Of a stretch of 36,094 bases of DNA, positions 1 through 18,790 are shown piece after piece. The stretch comes from Bacteroidota bacterium (lineage in GTDB: Bacteria; Bacteroidota; Bacteroidia; Flavobacteriales; Schleiferiaceae): positions 1-36,094 of the forward strand of contig PZPA01000010.1 in assembly GCA_003045825.1 (NCBI GenBank), written 5' to 3'. The notes beneath the pieces were generated by a model. It had not been told where the DNA came from. It saw only the letters and a program-made list of their open reading frames with translations, and made no database searches. The position numbers were made by a program, and so were the translations under genes. Numbering within the stretch: the first letter of the stretch is position 1; every line of letters starts with the position of its first letter.

Positions 1-979
1 ACTCAAATTCTGCCGCAGTCTTGCGCACAATCTCTGCAATTTTAGGGTAATGGATGTGATTAATGGTAGGGAACATGTGATGTTCCACCTGAAAGTTTAA
101 ACCGCCTGTGTACCAAGTCACCAACCAGTTTCTCGTGGCGAAATTCGCCGTTGTTTTCATCTGGTGTTCAAGGTTTGTGATGTTCTGTACCTCTTCCTCG
201 GTAGGGAATTCAGCCTTATCCACAACATGTGCTAACTGGAAGGTGATCGAAAGAATGAATCCTGCAATCACGTGCATTACTACATTCCCCCACAGCACTA
301 GATACCAAGGCGCACCTAACAACATAGGTAGGGCATAAAACACAGAAAAATGGAAAAGTTTACCGACGATAAGTTTTGTCCAAACCATTCCTAGACTCTG
401 ATCTTTTGCTTTAAAAAGATCGCTCTTGTTGTAATTCACCACCTGCTTGAAATCTTTTTCGAGCAACCACTTATACGTCATCAACGTATACGCAAAGGGC
501 GCATAAATATGTTGGTATTTATGCTTGGGCAACAACTGCTGACTCGGATGAAAACGGAAAATACTGCCGGTTTCAATATCGTCATCGTGGCCGTCGACGT
601 TTGTATGCGTGTGGTGTTTCATATTGTGCTGGACACGCCATGTGTAGGAGTTGCCCGCCAACATATAAATCGAAGCCCCAATTCTGCGGTTCCACCATTC
701 GCTGCGCGTGACAGTGTTGTGTAGTGCGTCGTGCATGAGGTTCATTCCAACACCTGCCATTCCTAAACCGGTAATGGCCCACAAGAGTGTAGTCATACCG
801 AATCCCCAATTCGAAGTCAAGAAAAAGACAAACGGAACAAGATACATTGCCAGATTGAGAGCGGCTTTAATGTAATACCTGTAGTCTGCTAAGCTCGATT
901 TATTCTCATCCTTAAAATACGCGCGTACTCTTTTGCGTACCTCTTTTTGGAAATCACTAGAACTCTTAAATCTTAACAT
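1..979 (-). CDS. Fatty acid desaturase, 3' end cut by window edge
   Basis: Integral membrane di-iron acyl-lipid/acyl-CoA desaturase (PF00487 type), which inserts double bonds into membrane fatty acids. I translated it directly from the complement of 979 down to 1 with no stop, so 326 residues are visible and the C-terminus is missing. The three histidine boxes are present: HDALH at residues 83-87, HNMKHHTHT at 118-126 and QVEHH at 297-301. The Q-x-x-H-H form of the third box is typical of front-end/linoleoyl-CoA-like desaturases. Hydrophobic segments lie at about 40-80 and in the region before box three. There is no N-terminal cytochrome b5 domain. It is divergent from pgi across a 93-base gap. 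Regiospecificity cannot be read from sequence. Confidence 0.9.
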   Translation of the reverse strand, partial: MLRFKSSSDFQKEVRKRVRAYFKDENKSSLADYRYYIKAALNLAMYLVPFVFFLTSNWGFGMTTLLWAITGLGMAGVGMNLMHDALHNTVTRSEWWNRRIGASIYMLAGNSYTWRVQHNMKHHTHTNVDGHDDDIETGSIFRFHPSQQLLPKHKYQHIYAPFAYTLMTYKWLLEKDFKQVVNYNKSDLFKAKDQSLGMVWTKLIVGKLFHFSVFYALPMLLGAPWYLVLWGNVVMHVIAGFILSITFQLAHVVDKAEFPTEEEVQNITNLEHQMKTTANFATRNWLVTWYTGGLNFQVEHHMFPTINHIHYPKIAEIVRKTAAEFE

Positions 980-13472: not shown

Positions 13473-15317
13473 CTACTCCACCGTAACTGATTTTGCAAGG
13501 TTACGCGGTCTGTCAACATCACATCCGCGCATAACGGCGATGTAGTAACTCAGTAATTGCAAAGGAATCACTGTTAATAATGGGGTTAGGGCCTCTAATG
13601 TTTCCGGGATTTCAATCACGTGGTCAGCACTATTGATGATTTCAGTATCGCCTTCTGTTACAATCGCGATAACCTTTCCTTCACGAGCCTTCACTTCTTG
13701 AACATTACTAACCAATTTCTCATAGTGCCCGTTGTTCGGTGCAACCACAACCACTGGCATATTTTCATCAATCAAAGCAATAGGTCCGTGCTTCATTTCC
13801 GCTGCTGGATAACCCTCAGCATGGATGTAAGAAATCTCTTTCAACTTCAATGCACCTTCTAGAGCGATAGGGAAATTAACACCACGACCTAAATAAAGTG
13901 CATTTGACGCATCTTTATAGAGGCCTGCAATCTCCTCGATATGCTCTTTTGACTCCAGTACTTTCTCTACTTTCTTTGGGATTACACTAAGCTCATTGAT
14001 AAGAGCGCGGTATTCCGAAGTAGAGAATTCGCCACGCATTTTACCCAGCTCAAGAGCCATCATGGTAAGCACCGTTACCTGAGAAGTAAATGCTTTCGTA
14101 GAAGCAACTCCTATTTCTGGGCCAGCATGGGTATAGGCACCTGCGTGCGTTTCGCGAGAGATGGTTGACCCAGGAACATTACATATTCCGAAAACCATCG
14201 CTCCTGCTGCTTTCGCCATTTTGATCGCCGCCAATGTATCCGCGGTCTCTCCACTTTGTGAAATTGCAATGACGATATCGTTCTTGCGGATGATTGGATT
14301 ACGGTAACGGAATTCCGATCCGTACTCTACTTCCACAGGAATTCTGGCAAATTCTTCAAAGAGGTATTCCGCAACCAATGCACTGTGCCAAGAGGTACCA
14401 CAAGCCGTCATGATAATGCGGTCTGCATTTCTAAACTTATCGGCATATTCCTCAAGCCCAGACATTTTTATCATGCCTTGTTCCGGCAAAAGGCGACCGC
14501 GGAAGGTATCGTAGATCGCACGTGGCTGCTCGTAGATCTCCTTCATCATGAAGTAGTCATAACCGCCTTTTTCAATGCTTTCAAGATTCATCTGAAGCGC
14601 GTGAATAGTCGGGCGAACCGACGCGTCACTTTCAATCATTCGGACTGTAATTTCACCTTGTGCAGTGATGCAAGCCATCTCACCGTCTTCCAGGTATATG
14701 GCATCTTTAGTGTACTCCAAGAATGGGGTGGCGTCTGAACCTATGAATTTTTCGTTCACACCTAAGCCAATCACGAGCGGTGATCCTAGTTTCGCAACAA
14801 CAATCTCTTCGGGACGATTCTTGTCATAAATACATATGGCGTAGGCACCAATAACTTGAGTCAATGCTATTCGAACAGCCTTGCGAAGTTTACAACCTTC
14901 TTCTTTCTGAACGTATTCAATGAAATTCACTAGAACTTCGGTATCCGTTTCGCTGTGGAACGAATAACCCTTGCCTTTGAGTAAATCCTTTAAGCTCTGG
15001 TAGTTTTCTATAATACCGTTGTGGACCAAAACAAGGTCACCGGAATTACTAATATGCGGATGCGCATTTTCGTCTGAAGGCTGACCGTGTGTGGCCCAGC
15101 GTGTATGTGCAATGCCGGTAGAGCCGGAAGTGTCGTTTGCGAGCGCATGCTCTTCCATGGCAACAACCATTCCCTGCTTTTTATAAACAGCAATCTCTCC
15201 GTTTTGCGCTAAAGCAACGCCTGAACTGTCATATCCACGGTACTCAAGACGTTTGAGTCCGTTCACGAGAATGGGGAACGCTTTTCTGTCCCCAATATAT
15301 CCTACAATGCCACACAT
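13473..15317 (-). CDS. glmS: Glutamine--fructose-6-phosphate aminotransferase (isomerizing)
   Basis: Makes glucosamine-6-phosphate from fructose-6-phosphate and glutamine, the entry step to peptidoglycan and LPS amino sugars. The product is 614 residues, close to E. coli GlmS. The N-terminal glutaminase domain begins MCGIVGYIG, with Cys2 as nucleophile after Met removal, and continues to about 225 with the HTRWATHG motif near 72-79. Two SIS sugar-isomerase domains follow (TACGTSWHSALVAEYL near 305, SQSGETADT near 352, then the second from about 460), and the end DRPRNLAKSVTVE is the conserved C-terminal tail forming the ammonia channel. It is the last gene of the operon with the DUF4270 and GT5-like genes, 45 bases after the former. 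Confidence 0.98.
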   Translation of the reverse strand: MCGIVGYIGDRKAFPILVNGLKRLEYRGYDSSGVALAQNGEIAVYKKQGMVVAMEEHALANDTSGSTGIAHTRWATHGQPSDENAHPHISNSGDLVLVHNGIIENYQSLKDLLKGKGYSFHSETDTEVLVNFIEYVQKEEGCKLRKAVRIALTQVIGAYAICIYDKNRPEEIVVAKLGSPLVIGLGVNEKFIGSDATPFLEYTKDAIYLEDGEMACITAQGEITVRMIESDASVRPTIHALQMNLESIEKGGYDYFMMKEIYEQPRAIYDTFRGRLLPEQGMIKMSGLEEYADKFRNADRIIMTACGTSWHSALVAEYLFEEFARIPVEVEYGSEFRYRNPIIRKNDIVIAISQSGETADTLAAIKMAKAAGAMVFGICNVPGSTISRETHAGAYTHAGPEIGVASTKAFTSQVTVLTMMALELGKMRGEFSTSEYRALINELSVIPKKVEKVLESKEHIEEIAGLYKDASNALYLGRGVNFPIALEGALKLKEISYIHAEGYPAAEMKHGPIALIDENMPVVVVAPNNGHYEKLVSNVQEVKAREGKVIAIVTEGDTEIINSADHVIEIPETLEALTPLLTVIPLQLLSYYIAVMRGCDVDRPRNLAKSVTVE

Positions 15318-15362: not shown

Positions 15363-16703
15363 CTACTCCGATTTCGTGTAGTAGACGTTAAATTCTACCG
15401 GAATAGTTGGGTGAAGACCACCGCCAAGAACAACGCGTGCCGCACTAGAATTAGAACTGGCAGGCGTAAGAATGACGGGGAAAATCTTTTCTTTTTCGTT
15501 CACGAAGTCATGTACCATCCGCGTCACATTAAAACGGTAACGGAATTCACGTAAATCTGCCCGATTAACGGCGCCACCTGCAGGATTAATGGGGTTCGTA
15601 TAATCTTTAATTAACGCTTGAGATGAATCTAAGTCTTGAAGAATCAGTAACGTGTTGGGCAGGGTATATGGTGAGGCCGTGCCTTGTAAGACGTGCGCAA
15701 TGATTTCAGCACGGTTGATGCTGTATCCTTTGCCTATCAATGTATCTAAGCCTGGGAATTCTAAAATAGTACGCGCCCCACCTGCACCTTGGGAATACGT
15801 GAGCACCTCACCGTTTAGGGTATCCTGCATGTCGATACCAAAATCTGCCGTCGTAAAGTCGTTTTCGTAGGAATTAAAGGATAGTCCTGGATCACCAAAA
15901 TTCTGGCCAAAAGTCATAGTGAAGAGCTTTGGAACGGTGTCTTGCGCTCCAGTATGGTAGAATAATTGAATCAAACTACCAGAAGCGGTGAGGTTAAAAA
16001 AGGACAATGCGCTGGTTCCCGTTCCTGCATCTCTGAAGTGTAATCCAGGTACAGACGCCACGAAACTTTCATTGTCAATGAGGTAATCCTCTCCAGCTAT
16101 AGCCGCATCGAAGAGCTTTTCTTGAAAGAAGGAAGGATCTAGGTCGAAAGTGAGGTAACCAACACTAGTATCAATGCCATTAAATACAGGAACACTTGGG
16201 TCAATCATTAGCGTAGTATCCATAATAGATGGACCCATTACTCGCATAGTATTGCTGTAATAGTTGATGGTATCTGACATGGGCTCGATAACCGGTAAGA
16301 CCTCAAGATGTATGGAATCTCCACGAAGGCCGTACGTATTCTGGTAAGCCAAACGAACTTTTACAGAATCACATACCGTGCTGTCTCCGAAATCTGGTGA
16401 TAGCTTTGATAGAAGTAGACGGGTCGTAAATGCAGCGTTGAGTTTTCCAAAAATAGGATCATTGAGATTTCCTAAAGCAACAGAAACAGGGTTTTTGGTG
16501 GTAATACTATCCCAATTCGTCGTGTAGGAGACGACATTAAAGGACAATTTTTCTCCTAATTCCGGACGGTCTTCAATGAATTTTCCAGCACCAATTTCAC
16601 CGTTGCTTTTTTCGCAACTGCTGCTTAGCAGGGCCAGCCCAACGAGGACTAGTAATCCTAATAGGGTCTTATTCAACGTCCTCTTCAACCAAAAGCGATT
16701 CAT
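15363..16703 (-). CDS. DUF4270-type lipoprotein
   Basis: 446 residues from the ATG at 16703. The N-terminus is a lipoprotein signal: a positively charged start, the hydrophobic stretch LLGLLVLVGLALL, then SSSC, with the Cys at about residue 31. The mature part resembles the DUF4270 family of Bacteroidetes, with ...IGAGKFIEDRP..., repeated 'SYTTNWDSITTKNPVSVALGNL' type beta-rich text and a C-terminal GLHPTIPVEFNVYYT. The function of the family is unknown. Upstream in-frame ATGs at 16718 and 16751 exist but extend ahead of the signal peptide. The chosen start overlaps the end of the GT5-like gene by 35 bases in another frame, implying translational coupling, and glmS follows 45 bases later. Confidence 0.8.
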   Translation of the reverse strand: MNRFWLKRTLNKTLLGLLVLVGLALLSSSCEKSNGEIGAGKFIEDRPELGEKLSFNVVSYTTNWDSITTKNPVSVALGNLNDPIFGKLNAAFTTRLLLSKLSPDFGDSTVCDSVKVRLAYQNTYGLRGDSIHLEVLPVIEPMSDTINYYSNTMRVMGPSIMDTTLMIDPSVPVFNGIDTSVGYLTFDLDPSFFQEKLFDAAIAGEDYLIDNESFVASVPGLHFRDAGTGTSALSFFNLTASGSLIQLFYHTGAQDTVPKLFTMTFGQNFGDPGLSFNSYENDFTTADFGIDMQDTLNGEVLTYSQGAGGARTILEFPGLDTLIGKGYSINRAEIIAHVLQGTASPYTLPNTLLILQDLDSSQALIKDYTNPINPAGGAVNRADLREFRYRFNVTRMVHDFVNEKEKIFPVILTPASSNSSAARVVLGGGLHPTIPVEFNVYYTKSE

Positions 16704-17487
16704 ATACCTTGATAGCATCTGTAGGGTTCTCAGAAAATGCTTTACCGTCAATGCAAGGGATGTCGTTAGCCTTACAAAACTCCTCTACGTGTCCGGTGTT
16801 TTCTTCACCGAGAATCACTACATCCGCATATTTAGCGGCTAAAAGCTGCAGGTCCTCACAGGTCGGCGCTTCTAAACCTTCGCACAACGCTGGGTCTATC
16901 TCATCAAACTCCATTCCTGATTTCAAGTTTGGACCTAAAGTCCCGTCAAAACCATTGTCGTAAGCAGAGAATACAATTTTGGCATCCTTGAAAATAGGGT
17001 TGTCCGCCTGGAAAAGACGCAAGTACATGGGCACTAACGCTGACATCCAACCGTGAACGTGGATAACGTCAGGCTTCCATCCTAATTTCTCAACAGTATC
17101 AATAGCGCCTTTCGAAAAGAAAAGCGTGCGTTCGTCATTATCCTCAAACTGCTTTCCGTCAGCATCCGCATAAGTGAATTTGCGTTTGAAGTATTCTTCA
17201 TTGTCAATAAAATATACCTGCATACGTGCACCAGGAACCGAAGCAACTTTAATGATTAACGGCATATCCATGTCGTTGATTACCACGTTCATCCCACTTA
17301 AGCGAATCACTTCGTGCAGTTGATGCCTGCGCTCATTAATGACGCCGAAGCGTGGCATGAATACGCGCACCTGGTGACCACTGTCGTTCGTCTTCTTAGC
17401 CAAAGCCAGAGTCGTACTTGAAATGGTGTTTTCAGGTAAATAAGGATGAATTTCTTGGGAAATGAATAAGACGCGCTTGCTTTCCAT
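16669..17487 (-). CDS. Short glycogen/starch synthase-like protein (GT5 N-terminal domain only)
   Basis: 272 residues resembling the N-terminal Rossmann domain of GT5 glycogen synthases: RVLFISQEIHPYL at 5-17, VRVFMPRFG at 40-48, and KPDVIHVHGWMSALVPMYL from 138. Full GlgA is about 470-500 residues, so the entire C-terminal GT-B domain is missing. The nucleotide-sugar loop K-x-G-G after the first strand is replaced by PENTISS (18-24), and the usual HN-x-AYQG becomes AYDNGFDG (175-182). Glycogen synthase activity is therefore doubtful despite the usual database label. The frame opens at 17517, but the promoter box overlaps that point, so ATG 17487 is preferred. First gene of the operon with DUF4270 and glmS. 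Confidence 0.8.
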   Translation of the reverse strand: MESKRVLFISQEIHPYLPENTISSTTLALAKKTNDSGHQVRVFMPRFGVINERRHQLHEVIRLSGMNVVINDMDMPLIIKVASVPGARMQVYFIDNEEYFKRKFTYADADGKQFEDNDERTLFFSKGAIDTVEKLGWKPDVIHVHGWMSALVPMYLRLFQADNPIFKDAKIVFSAYDNGFDGTLGPNLKSGMEFDEIDPALCEGLEAPTCEDLQLLAAKYADVVILGEENTGHVEEFCKANDIPCIDGKAFSENPTDAIKVYESLLVEEDVE

Positions 17488-17514: not shown

Positions 17515-17545
17515 CAAAGATACCTATTTTCGCCCTTTATATCAA
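17515..17545 (-). promoter_or_regulatory. Promoter of the GT5-like/DUF4270/glmS operon
   Basis: On the minus strand TTG (17545-17543), a 20-base spacer, then TATCTTTG (17522-17515), an exact TAnnTTTG. This is the best two-element Bacteroidetes promoter I found in the window. Transcription would start near 17508, about 20 bases before the ATG at 17487. Confidence 0.7.
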
Positions 17546-17554
17546 AGAATGGGC

Positions 17555-17579: not shown

Positions 17580-18425
17580 ATGAAACACATTCGTAGCATT
17601 GAGGAGTTAGCGCGCTGGAAATCTGAAGGTCGCGAAAAAAAATTGGGCTTTGTTCCTACGATGGGTGCATTGCATAAAGGACACTTGAGTTTGGTCCAAC
17701 TTAGTCAAGAAAAATGCGATAGAACATTAGTCAGCATTTATGTCAATCCAACCCAGTTTAACAACAAAGAAGATTTCGCTAAATACCCTAGTACGCTCGA
17801 GGCGGACTTGAGCGCGTTGGAAGCTATGGGTTGCGATGCGGTATTTCTTCCAGATGCGGAGATGCTTTATCCTGAGGGTTTGAAGTCTAGACGATTTGAT
17901 TTTGAGGGCTTGGACCGACACATGGAAGGTGCAGGACGTCCAGGTCACTTTGAAGGAATGGCCACCGTGGTCACACGATTCTTTGCCCTGATTGAACCTG
18001 ATGTCGCCGTTTTTGGTGAAAAAGATTATCAGCAACTGAGCATTATTAGACACGTGGTTGCAAAAGAGAATTGGCCCGTAGAAATCTTGCCCGGACCTAT
18101 TTTTAGAGAAGCAGACGGACTAGCGATGAGCAGCCGAAACATGCGACTTTTACCACATGAGCGTAAAGAATCCGCGCAAATTTATGCGGTATTAAGCCGT
18201 GCCATTTCTACCCTAGATCTTGAAAAAACGACCAGAAAGACCTTCGAAAAAGCGTGTATCAAAGCACTGGATGCGGTACCGTCAATTCGTGTGGAATACG
18301 TAAGCTGTTGTGATGCCGCAACACTTCAACCTTTGGACGAATTCAACACTTCCCGTCCCGCTAGAGTGTTTGCTGCTGTTCAATGTGGAAAAGTCCGACT
18401 CATTGACAACCTTCCTCTTTTTTAA
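17580..18425 (+). CDS. panC: Pantothenate synthetase (pantoate--beta-alanine ligase)
   Basis: ATP-dependent condensation of pantoate with beta-alanine to form pantothenate, the precursor of coenzyme A. The product is 281 residues, the usual length. The adenylate-forming fold shows [13 protein letters not shown] (26-38) with the H-x-G-H nucleotide motif at 32-35, YVNPTQFN near 57-64, FGEKDYQQL near 145-153 and the KMSKS-equivalent MSSRN near 180. It is first in a run with panD, 14 bases downstream, which supplies its beta-alanine substrate. No panB is present in the window. Confidence 0.97.
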
Positions 18426-18439
18426 GCTACTTTTGCCGC

Positions 18440-18790
18440 ATGCAAATAGAGGTTGTAAAAAGTAAAATTCATCGCGTTCATGTTACAGGAGCAGAGCTGG
18501 ATTATATCGGTTCTATTACCCTAGATACAGAACTCATGGATGCCGCCGGAATTTTACCCGGAGAGCGCGTTTATATCGTAAACATCAATAACGGTGAGCG
18601 TTTCGATACGTACACCATTGCAGGTACTCCTGGCGCAGGGGAAGTAACCTTAAACGGACCCGCTGCTCGACGCGTGCAAAAAGGCGATATCATTATCATC
18701 ATTGCTTACGCACACATGAGTCCGGAAGAAGCAAAATCATTCAAACCGAGCATCGTTTTTCCGAACGAGACTACGAATCGAATAGTTTAA
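18440..18790 (+). CDS. panD: Aspartate 1-decarboxylase proenzyme
   Basis: Pyruvoyl enzyme decarboxylating aspartate to beta-alanine. The product is 116 residues, typical of bacterial PanD. The self-cleavage site is visible as YIGS at 22-25: cleavage between Gly24 and Ser25 makes the pyruvoyl group. Other conserved text is [14 protein letters not shown] (7-20), [10 protein letters not shown] near 53-62 and [20 protein letters not shown] near 73-92. It lies directly after panC, whose reaction it feeds, and its stop overlaps the next start as TAATG. Confidence 0.97.

Follow-up and report, generated by a model that had tools for sequence, protein, structure and literature searches.

A half-length glycosyltransferase family 5 protein encoded beside bamH in Bacteroidota is mislabelled as a glycogen synthase

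Pseudoenzymes of glycosyltransferase family 5 (GT5) are a kind already known from plants, where STARCH SYNTHASE 5 (SS5) lacks the C-terminal subdomain. SS5 is described as GT5-like and non-enzymatic, acting via protein partners, with MRC binding to it (PMC10801857, PMC11772324). The subject here is likewise a GT5-like protein, half-GT5, encoded in a stretch of 36,094 nucleotides (the window) from a Bacteroidota bacterium of the Schleiferiaceae (assembly GCA_003045825.1, contig PZPA01000010.1). SS5 differs in being eukaryotic and plastidial and in working in starch-granule initiation, and the likeness between the two is likely convergence. A GlgA-GT5 fragment of Bacteroidetes has also been reported, the relevant part of that source giving no function, neighbours, ancestry or anatomy for it (PMC11046441). 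In the open-licence PMC literature, no bacterial, domain-excised GT5 pseudoenzyme linked to the β-barrel assembly machinery (BAM) was found, nor any link between this gene and BAM.

The gene next to half-GT5 encodes a BamH-type protein. BamH, of the DUF4270 family, is the canopy lipoprotein of BAM in Bacteroidota. It lies at the cell surface in the complexes of Flavobacterium johnsoniae (Fjoh_0823) and Bacteroides thetaiotaomicron (Bt4306), and its gene is reported as impossible to delete in wild-type F. johnsoniae and possible to delete in B. thetaiotaomicron (PMC12611786, PMC12578637). For its depletion constructs, the F. johnsoniae BAM paper drew on the promoter that precedes fjoh_0824. From its locus tag next to bamH, fjoh_0824 is presumably the half-GT5 gene, and BT_4307 is presumably the orthologue in B. 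thetaiotaomicron, given its tag beside bamH and its 'glycogen synthase' label. That label has been taken at face value in the parts of the literature that use it (PMC10797578, PMC10394638); glycogen storage has been argued from BT_4307 (PMC10797578), and Bacteroidetes without GlgC have been treated as a puzzle (PMC10395257). In the two BAM papers (PMC12611786, PMC12578637) the words 'glycogen' and 'glycosyltransferase' occur 0 times and 'operon' 0 times and once, respectively, the single occurrence concerning bamG2/bamH2. In transposon studies of P. gingivalis and B. fragilis, neither 'glycogen' nor 'starch synthase' appears in the main text.

Judged from its sequence, half-GT5 has neither an ADP-glucose loop nor a catalytic C-domain. 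Pfam PF08323 (Glyco_transf_5) matches residues 5-225 with 157 bits (cut-off 22.7), and the same scan matched no C-terminal transferase domain. The NCBIfam GlgA models reach only to about residue 190 and score far under their cut-offs, with 108.6 bits for TIGR02095 against a required 328.45. The chain opens directly at the first Rossmann strand (residues 5-10), and by eye the sequence carries no signal peptide or lipobox. An initial annotation of the window had reported that PENTISS (residues 18-24) replaces the K-x-G-G loop and AYDNGFDG (residues 175-182) the HN-x-AYQG region, and both segments are present as stated: P18, N20 and T21 stand at the K-x-G-G positions, and YD..DG is read in place of HN..QG.

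These losses extend to the relatives. In 59 half-length proteins (halves; loci L089-L148 without L109, which looked frameshifted and was left out of the 59-row counts and of the second tree), K18 is present in 3, G20-G21 in 0, HN in 2, QG in 0 and D146 in 13. The corresponding numbers for 25 full-length GT5s linked to BAM genes are 25, 24, 25, 25 and 23, and for 11 canonical GlgAs 11, 11, 11, 10 and 11. K18 and the glycine pair occur together in 0/59 halves, 24/25 linked enzymes and 11/11 GlgAs, bearing out the earlier claim that the ADP-glucose loop is missing; the 59 include L140, which is 97% identical to the half-GT5 of the window. EPCG and QKG, motifs of the C-terminal nucleotide-binding domain of GlgA, are found in 0/59 halves, and the phosphate-binding loop is not conserved among them. 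Because both the C-domain and the phosphate loop are gone, it is very unlikely that half-GT5 works as a GT5 enzyme, and that the protein is non-catalytic can be held with high confidence. The label 'glycogen synthase' is wrong, and the suspicion that the family name is misleading was well founded given the missing loop and C-domain.

The predicted structure agrees with GT5 ancestry. An AlphaFold2 model (52 rows) has a mean predicted local distance difference test score (pLDDT) of 90.9 and a predicted template modelling score (pTM) of 0.91. A comparison of such a model with GlgA had been proposed, and starch and glycogen synthases proved to be the best structural matches. They head the Foldseek list (6gne_B, E 3.3e-15), and VIA-align gives Z 26.8 for 6gne_A (root-mean-square deviation 2.7 across 251 residues), Z 23.7 for 1rzu_A and Z 22.8 for 2qzs. 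Sequence comparison likewise puts starch synthase IV (6gne) and glycogen synthase (1rzu) closest among the solved structures. The alignments use model residues 2..268 (or 4..267, 4..266) and end on the final residue of 6gne_A, 1rzu_A and 2qzs, which identifies the last helix of half-GT5 (residues 256-266), aligned with the C-terminal helix of GT-B enzymes, as the probable counterpart of that helix. In 36/60 halves, against about 8% expected, a terminal-helix profile scores best no more than 20 residues from the C end, and the match is individually significant in just 11/60; Tyr262 is present in 55/59. The modelled fold suggests that the C-domain was likely excised internally, leaving the terminal helix behind. 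The earlier description of a protein that stops after its N-terminal domain is thus right about the C-domain, whereas the final GT-B helix seems to have been retained.

Homology searches place half-GT5 in a widespread and strongly conserved family. The window protein found a match in 245 of the 247 phylum genomes that were at least 90% complete. Among the 150 matches listed, one per genome of that completeness, half-size frames make up 30/30 in its own and same-order genomes, 31/31 in those of the same class and 59/89 in those of other classes. In its own order, matches were obtained in 270 of 296 genomes of any completeness and in 219 of the 225 good ones, and 28 of 31 relatives have one. In the samples taken, the complete genomes of the window's class nearly all have half-GT5. 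Where same-genus copies cover the query from end to end, they are 83-97% identical. The ratio of nonsynonymous to synonymous substitution rates (dN/dS) is 0.009 for the window and L140, the one pair for which dS was defined (1.8, near saturation; L138 and L139 yielded none). For that pair radA likewise gives 0.009, and the neighbouring genes give 0.017 (glmS), 0.025 (panD), 0.031 (bamH), 0.060 (a flippase-like gene) and 0.082 (panC). A decaying pseudogene is ruled out by the class-wide conservation and this single-pair dN/dS, as the initial annotation had maintained. A frameshifted or misassembled GlgA is also ruled out: many families share the same length, and the genome of the window (1.83 Mb, 99.5% complete) has half-GT5 as its one PF08323 match and no full-length one. 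At one other locus (L158 5215-6777), a half-type GT5 occupies residues 266-478 of a 520-aa frame whose long N-terminal extension is of doubtful reality.

Half-GT5 is regularly followed by bamH. In 77 of 80 named loci bamH lies directly downstream; in the others it is further away (L250) or none is shown (L212, L256). A downstream glmS occurs in 75 of the 80 and a divergent panC in 79. The median spacing between half-GT5 and bamH is 14 nt in the 69 loci measured, and in the window the bamH-type gene overlaps the 3' end of half-GT5 by 35 nt. The window protein, scanned from 16691 and so four codons short, matches Pfam PF14092 (DUF4270; 124 bits) and, below the cut-off of 420, NCBIfam BamH_fj (88.9 bits). 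For 32 open reading frames (ORFs) downstream of half-GT5 genes, BamH_fj and Pfam DUF4270 each match 29/32. In 40 loci of the same order or class bamH was found in 36 (not in L089, L090, L105 and L108). In other classes, 19 of 20 loci have the order half-GT5, bamH, FadL-like gene, and glmS and panC were seen in 0/20, which weakens the idea that the function is tied to GlmS or PanC. The FadL-like third gene is BamG by NCBIfam, at 243 bits in L110 and 237.5 bits in L157, just under the cut-off of 250. Because the ORFs next to GT5 genes supplied the hidden Markov models A1, A2, A3 and bh, a match of these models to their own source loci is a matter of construction. The independent tests are the Pfam and NCBIfam scans of A1-A3 members (DUF4270 in 9/17 for A1, FadL-type in 6/17 for A2, 29/32 for A3), the BamG scores of L110 and L157, the 80 named loci, and A1-A3 applied to 40 loci of full-length type. 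One A1 member, an unrelated enzyme (presumably L125), was removed, as were 4/32 A3 members ahead of model building.

The same partners accompany certain full-length GT5s. Forty loci were chosen for another PF08323 gene of the phylum, from classes that we guess to be Rhodothermia, Ignavibacteria and Chlorobia. In 25 of them a full-length GT5 has bamH downstream (24 by A1-A3, with L150 added by bh). Of these 25 loci, 19 also carry bamG and 18 a GmhB-like ORF, the order being GT5, often gmhB, then bamH and bamG; each of bamH, bamG and the GmhB-like ORF is found in 0/11 canonical GlgA loci. Linked and canonical enzymes were separated by neighbourhood rather than motif, and L167 was assigned to the canonical set once the first tree had been made. 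In 6/6 genomes from which two full-length GT5 paralogs were taken, exactly one is BAM-linked. The linked enzymes thus resemble half-GT5 in partners (bamH 25/25 by definition, bamG 19/25) and in the residue motif described below, and differ in being complete (K-x-G-G 24/25, EPCG 24/25). For L157, NCBIfam gives the GT5 570.7 bits with TIGR02095 (glgA) and leaves the bamH ORF without a name, with a weak DNRLRE match only. The GmhB-like, heptose bisphosphate phosphatase ORF adjoins full-length GT5 and bamH in, for example, L186, L181 and L160. Of three such proteins scanned, that of L186 scores 153 bits with TIGR00213, above the cut-off, and the two others 145 and 135, below it. This association suggests that the ancestral GT5 may have served envelope glycan synthesis based on ADP-sugars or ADP-heptose.

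In a tree of N-domains (80 rows), the 41 rows of halves form a single clade (100/99), as do the 11 rows of canonical GlgA (100/97). The phylogeny of short GT5 proteins that had been called for therefore separates them from ordinary GlgA. Rooting on canonical GlgA, an imposed outgroup, unites the halves with L149-L153 and L163-L165, though inner support is modest (88/43 and 88/81). A residue motif follows the same lines. H58/R62/L63 occurs in 59/59 halves, 23/25 linked enzymes, 3/3 of L163-L165 and 0/11 GlgAs; in that order, R53 is found in 59/59, 23/25, 3/3 and 0/11, Q90 in 59/59, 24/25, 3/3 and 0/11, N96 in 57/59, 23/25, 2/3 and 1/11, and N117 in 59/59, 25/25, 0/3 and 4/11. Comparison of these loci and sequences shows that half-GT5 shares both the bamH partner and the motif with the full-length lineage. 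Given the GlgA-rooted tree, the shared synteny and the shared motif, half-GT5 in all probability descends from BAM-linked full-length GT5s.

The proteins of L163-L165 are full-length and belong to the 'starch synthase' type of NCBIfam PRK14098, with which that of L164 (5983-7452) scores 937.6 bits. They resemble the halves in keeping the motif while having lost K-x-G-G in 3/3 and, together with L149-L153, lie nearest to the halves (88/81). They differ in that they still have the C-domain, though without EPCG and QKG in 3/3. Each of their loci has a GmhB-like ORF, and neither bamH nor bamG was found there. From these sequence losses, they are probably pseudoenzymes too, and this degenerate stage may resemble an intermediate towards the halves. 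The series from full-length to degenerate full-length to excised half would make a clear case of an enzyme becoming a pseudoenzyme with much of its genomic context kept.

Half-GT5 is also retained in genomes of endosymbiont size. In one family of the order (f71, 0.3-0.6 Mb), probably insect endosymbionts such as Blattabacterium, it is present in 46 genomes by a count made by eye, up to six further unmatched genomes of the order lying outside the listing. None of the 216 genomes with DUF4270 belongs to f71, although a diverged BamH could escape detection, and BamG was found in 0/6 f71 genomes tested; endosymbiont Bacteroidota are likewise described as lacking BamG (PMC12578637). In three 0.63-Mb loci half-GT5 now adjoins glmS (3/3), with no bamH or panC seen. 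The genome G423 (344,793 bp, single contig) retains half-GT5, and no glmS, BamG or DUF4270 was found there. Near its half-GT5 are genes for OmpH/Skp-like and POTRA (BamA-like) proteins, on the other strand (L284 7989-12151); an Omp85 barrel model found nothing in this genome. The R53-H58/R62/L63-Q90 motif is nearly letter-perfect in the 4/4 endosymbiont-sized loci read, at 22-27% GC. Since the gene is retained where BamH and BamG are not detectable, it would have a use beyond these two proteins. A search of the open-licence PMC literature on Blattabacterium and glycogen synthase had nothing on point among the papers listed.

Taken together, the evidence leans somewhat towards half-GT5 being a re-used, non-catalytic GT5 half that serves as a binding or adaptor protein in envelope biogenesis. 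The protein would be cytosolic, transfer no sugar and act through binding. The block of R53, H58/R62/L63, Q90, N96 and N117, which would have been inherited from the BAM-linked enzymes and is wholly or largely absent from GlgA, may bind a partner protein or a small ligand that biogenesis of the cell envelope (outer membrane) requires; half-GT5 and bamH would be transcribed together. The bamH operon argues for a role in envelope assembly, and retention in endosymbiont-sized genomes for a basic one; the latter, with BamH and BamG undetectable, also suggests that the essential task is older or more basic than both. The narrower proposal of a cytosolic adaptor for envelope biogenesis is tentative, its odds being a little short of even, and remains our best guess ahead of the alternatives below. 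More speculative still, and doubtful as a whole, is the scenario of a cytosolic pseudoenzyme, near-universal in the Bacteroidia and among their relatives, on which the cell envelope would depend. In it, a GT5 entered the BAM operon, lost its catalytic half and became an adaptor that the cell cannot do without, connecting sugar metabolism or precursor supply to outer-membrane assembly. Even a 345-kb endosymbiont-sized genome, where BamG, BamH and GlmS can no longer be detected, would need it.

Several observations weigh against this interpretation. Operon membership is not function, and half-GT5 is not among the BAM pull-down subunits named for F. johnsoniae and B. thetaiotaomicron in the relevant parts of the two studies (PMC12611786, PMC12578637). 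The BAM link could be historical, given that the f71 genomes keep half-GT5 with no detectable bamH or bamG, and G596 (0.3 Mb, 8 contigs) has Omp85 yet lacks half-GT5. In the order as a whole, 26 of the 296 genomes, 6 of them good, gave no match. Concerning descent, a root on the branch to the halves would make them sister to all full-length GT5s, GlgA included, and L187, a full-length GT5 adjoining bamH and bamG, groups with canonical GlgA (98/95 in the first tree, 97/95 in the second).

Some of these points would suit a core housekeeping binding protein that acts outside the envelope, for instance in a metabolic enzyme complex or in translation, and for which the operon is merely an address. 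Such a role would explain why the gene is kept in the 344,793-bp genome where glmS, BamG and DUF4270 were not found, why 46 f71 genomes have it against one seen without it (G596), and why its dN/dS is as low as that of radA in one pair. We consider it rather unlikely, since the link to bamH and bamG is held across the phylum where those to panC and glmS are not, and is common to the full-length GT5s. Less probable again is a ligand sensor for a nucleotide sugar, an amino sugar phosphate or a cofactor that tunes the supply of envelope precursors or the expression of bamH and glmS. The frequent position of glmS downstream (75/80 loci), and as the next gene in 3/3 of the 0.63-Mb genomes, speaks for it, as does the enrichment of BT_4307 in two independent screens with a vitamin B12 photo-affinity probe (log2 2.6 and 1.05; PMC8941943). 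However, the section of that paper reporting the enrichment contains no follow-up of BT_4307, and the enrichment may be non-specific. Sensing of GlcN-6-P is weakened because the 345-kb genome retains half-GT5 with no glmS found there; the phosphate-binding loop is not conserved, and the Pfam scan gave no DNA-binding domain.

Enzymatic alternatives fare worse than these. Split GT-B enzymes do exist in nature, such as Alg14 with Alg13, and half-GT5 might in principle pair with a separate C-half. The genome of the window has nine PF00534 places, all of them in frames of 354-422 aa and none C-half sized, and the K-x-G-G and HN..QG that a two-chain active site requires are lost too, making a split enzyme highly improbable. 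An active short glycogen synthase, as the label has it, can draw on the PF08323 match, the database names and the citation of BT_4307 as a potential glycogen synthase in the part of PMC10797578 that deals with it, but a protein with neither C-domain nor K-x-G-G, and kept in a 345-kb genome, is almost certainly something else. If half-GT5 is indeed non-catalytic and tied to the BAM operon, the inferences about glycogen (PMC10797578, PMC10395257) lose their ground, and a strongly selected protein opens to testing in model species.

The features of the locus are given in Table 1. The half-GT5 ORF is open and intact from its ATG, as the initial annotation had stated. A TTG ten codons upstream is a possible alternative start by ORF rules and falls within a promoter match of Bacteroidota type; because it sits inside this promoter-like site, the ATG is the likelier start of translation. 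The Bacteroidota promoter consensus has a single match in the 36-kb window (17546-17515 on the minus strand), where the mean expected by chance is 0.95, and a scan for sigma-70 promoters stayed at chance level (5 found against 5.1 expected). Relaxing the pattern gives hits in the 150 bp upstream of 4/80 relatives, compared with 69/6311 background windows. The 'clean promoter' reported earlier therefore stands as one consensus match upstream and is plausible only, the match count being about that expected by chance; as a sequence signal, it is suggestive of a real promoter.

Table 1. Features around half-GT5, in window coordinates.
Feature	Position	Strand	Description
glmS	13473..15317	-	Next gene after bamH, same strand as half-GT5
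bamH-type gene (DUF4270)	15363..16703	-	446-aa lipoprotein; lipobox LSSSC, acidic residues after Cys
half-GT5 gene	16669..17487	-	272 aa; GT-B N-terminal Rossmann domain and terminal helix, without K-x-G-G, HN..QG and the whole C-domain
Promoter-like site TTTG-N-TANNTTTG	17515..17546	-	Bacteroidota type, 27 nt ahead of the half-GT5 ATG
panC	17580..18425	+	Divergent neighbour of half-GT5
panD	18440..18790	+	After panC

In five loci (L116, L118, L119, L121 and L122), a strongly conserved gene of about 272 aa lies just upstream of half-GT5 on the same strand, its products being 71-76% identical to that of L116. It seems to resemble phosphosulfolactate synthase.

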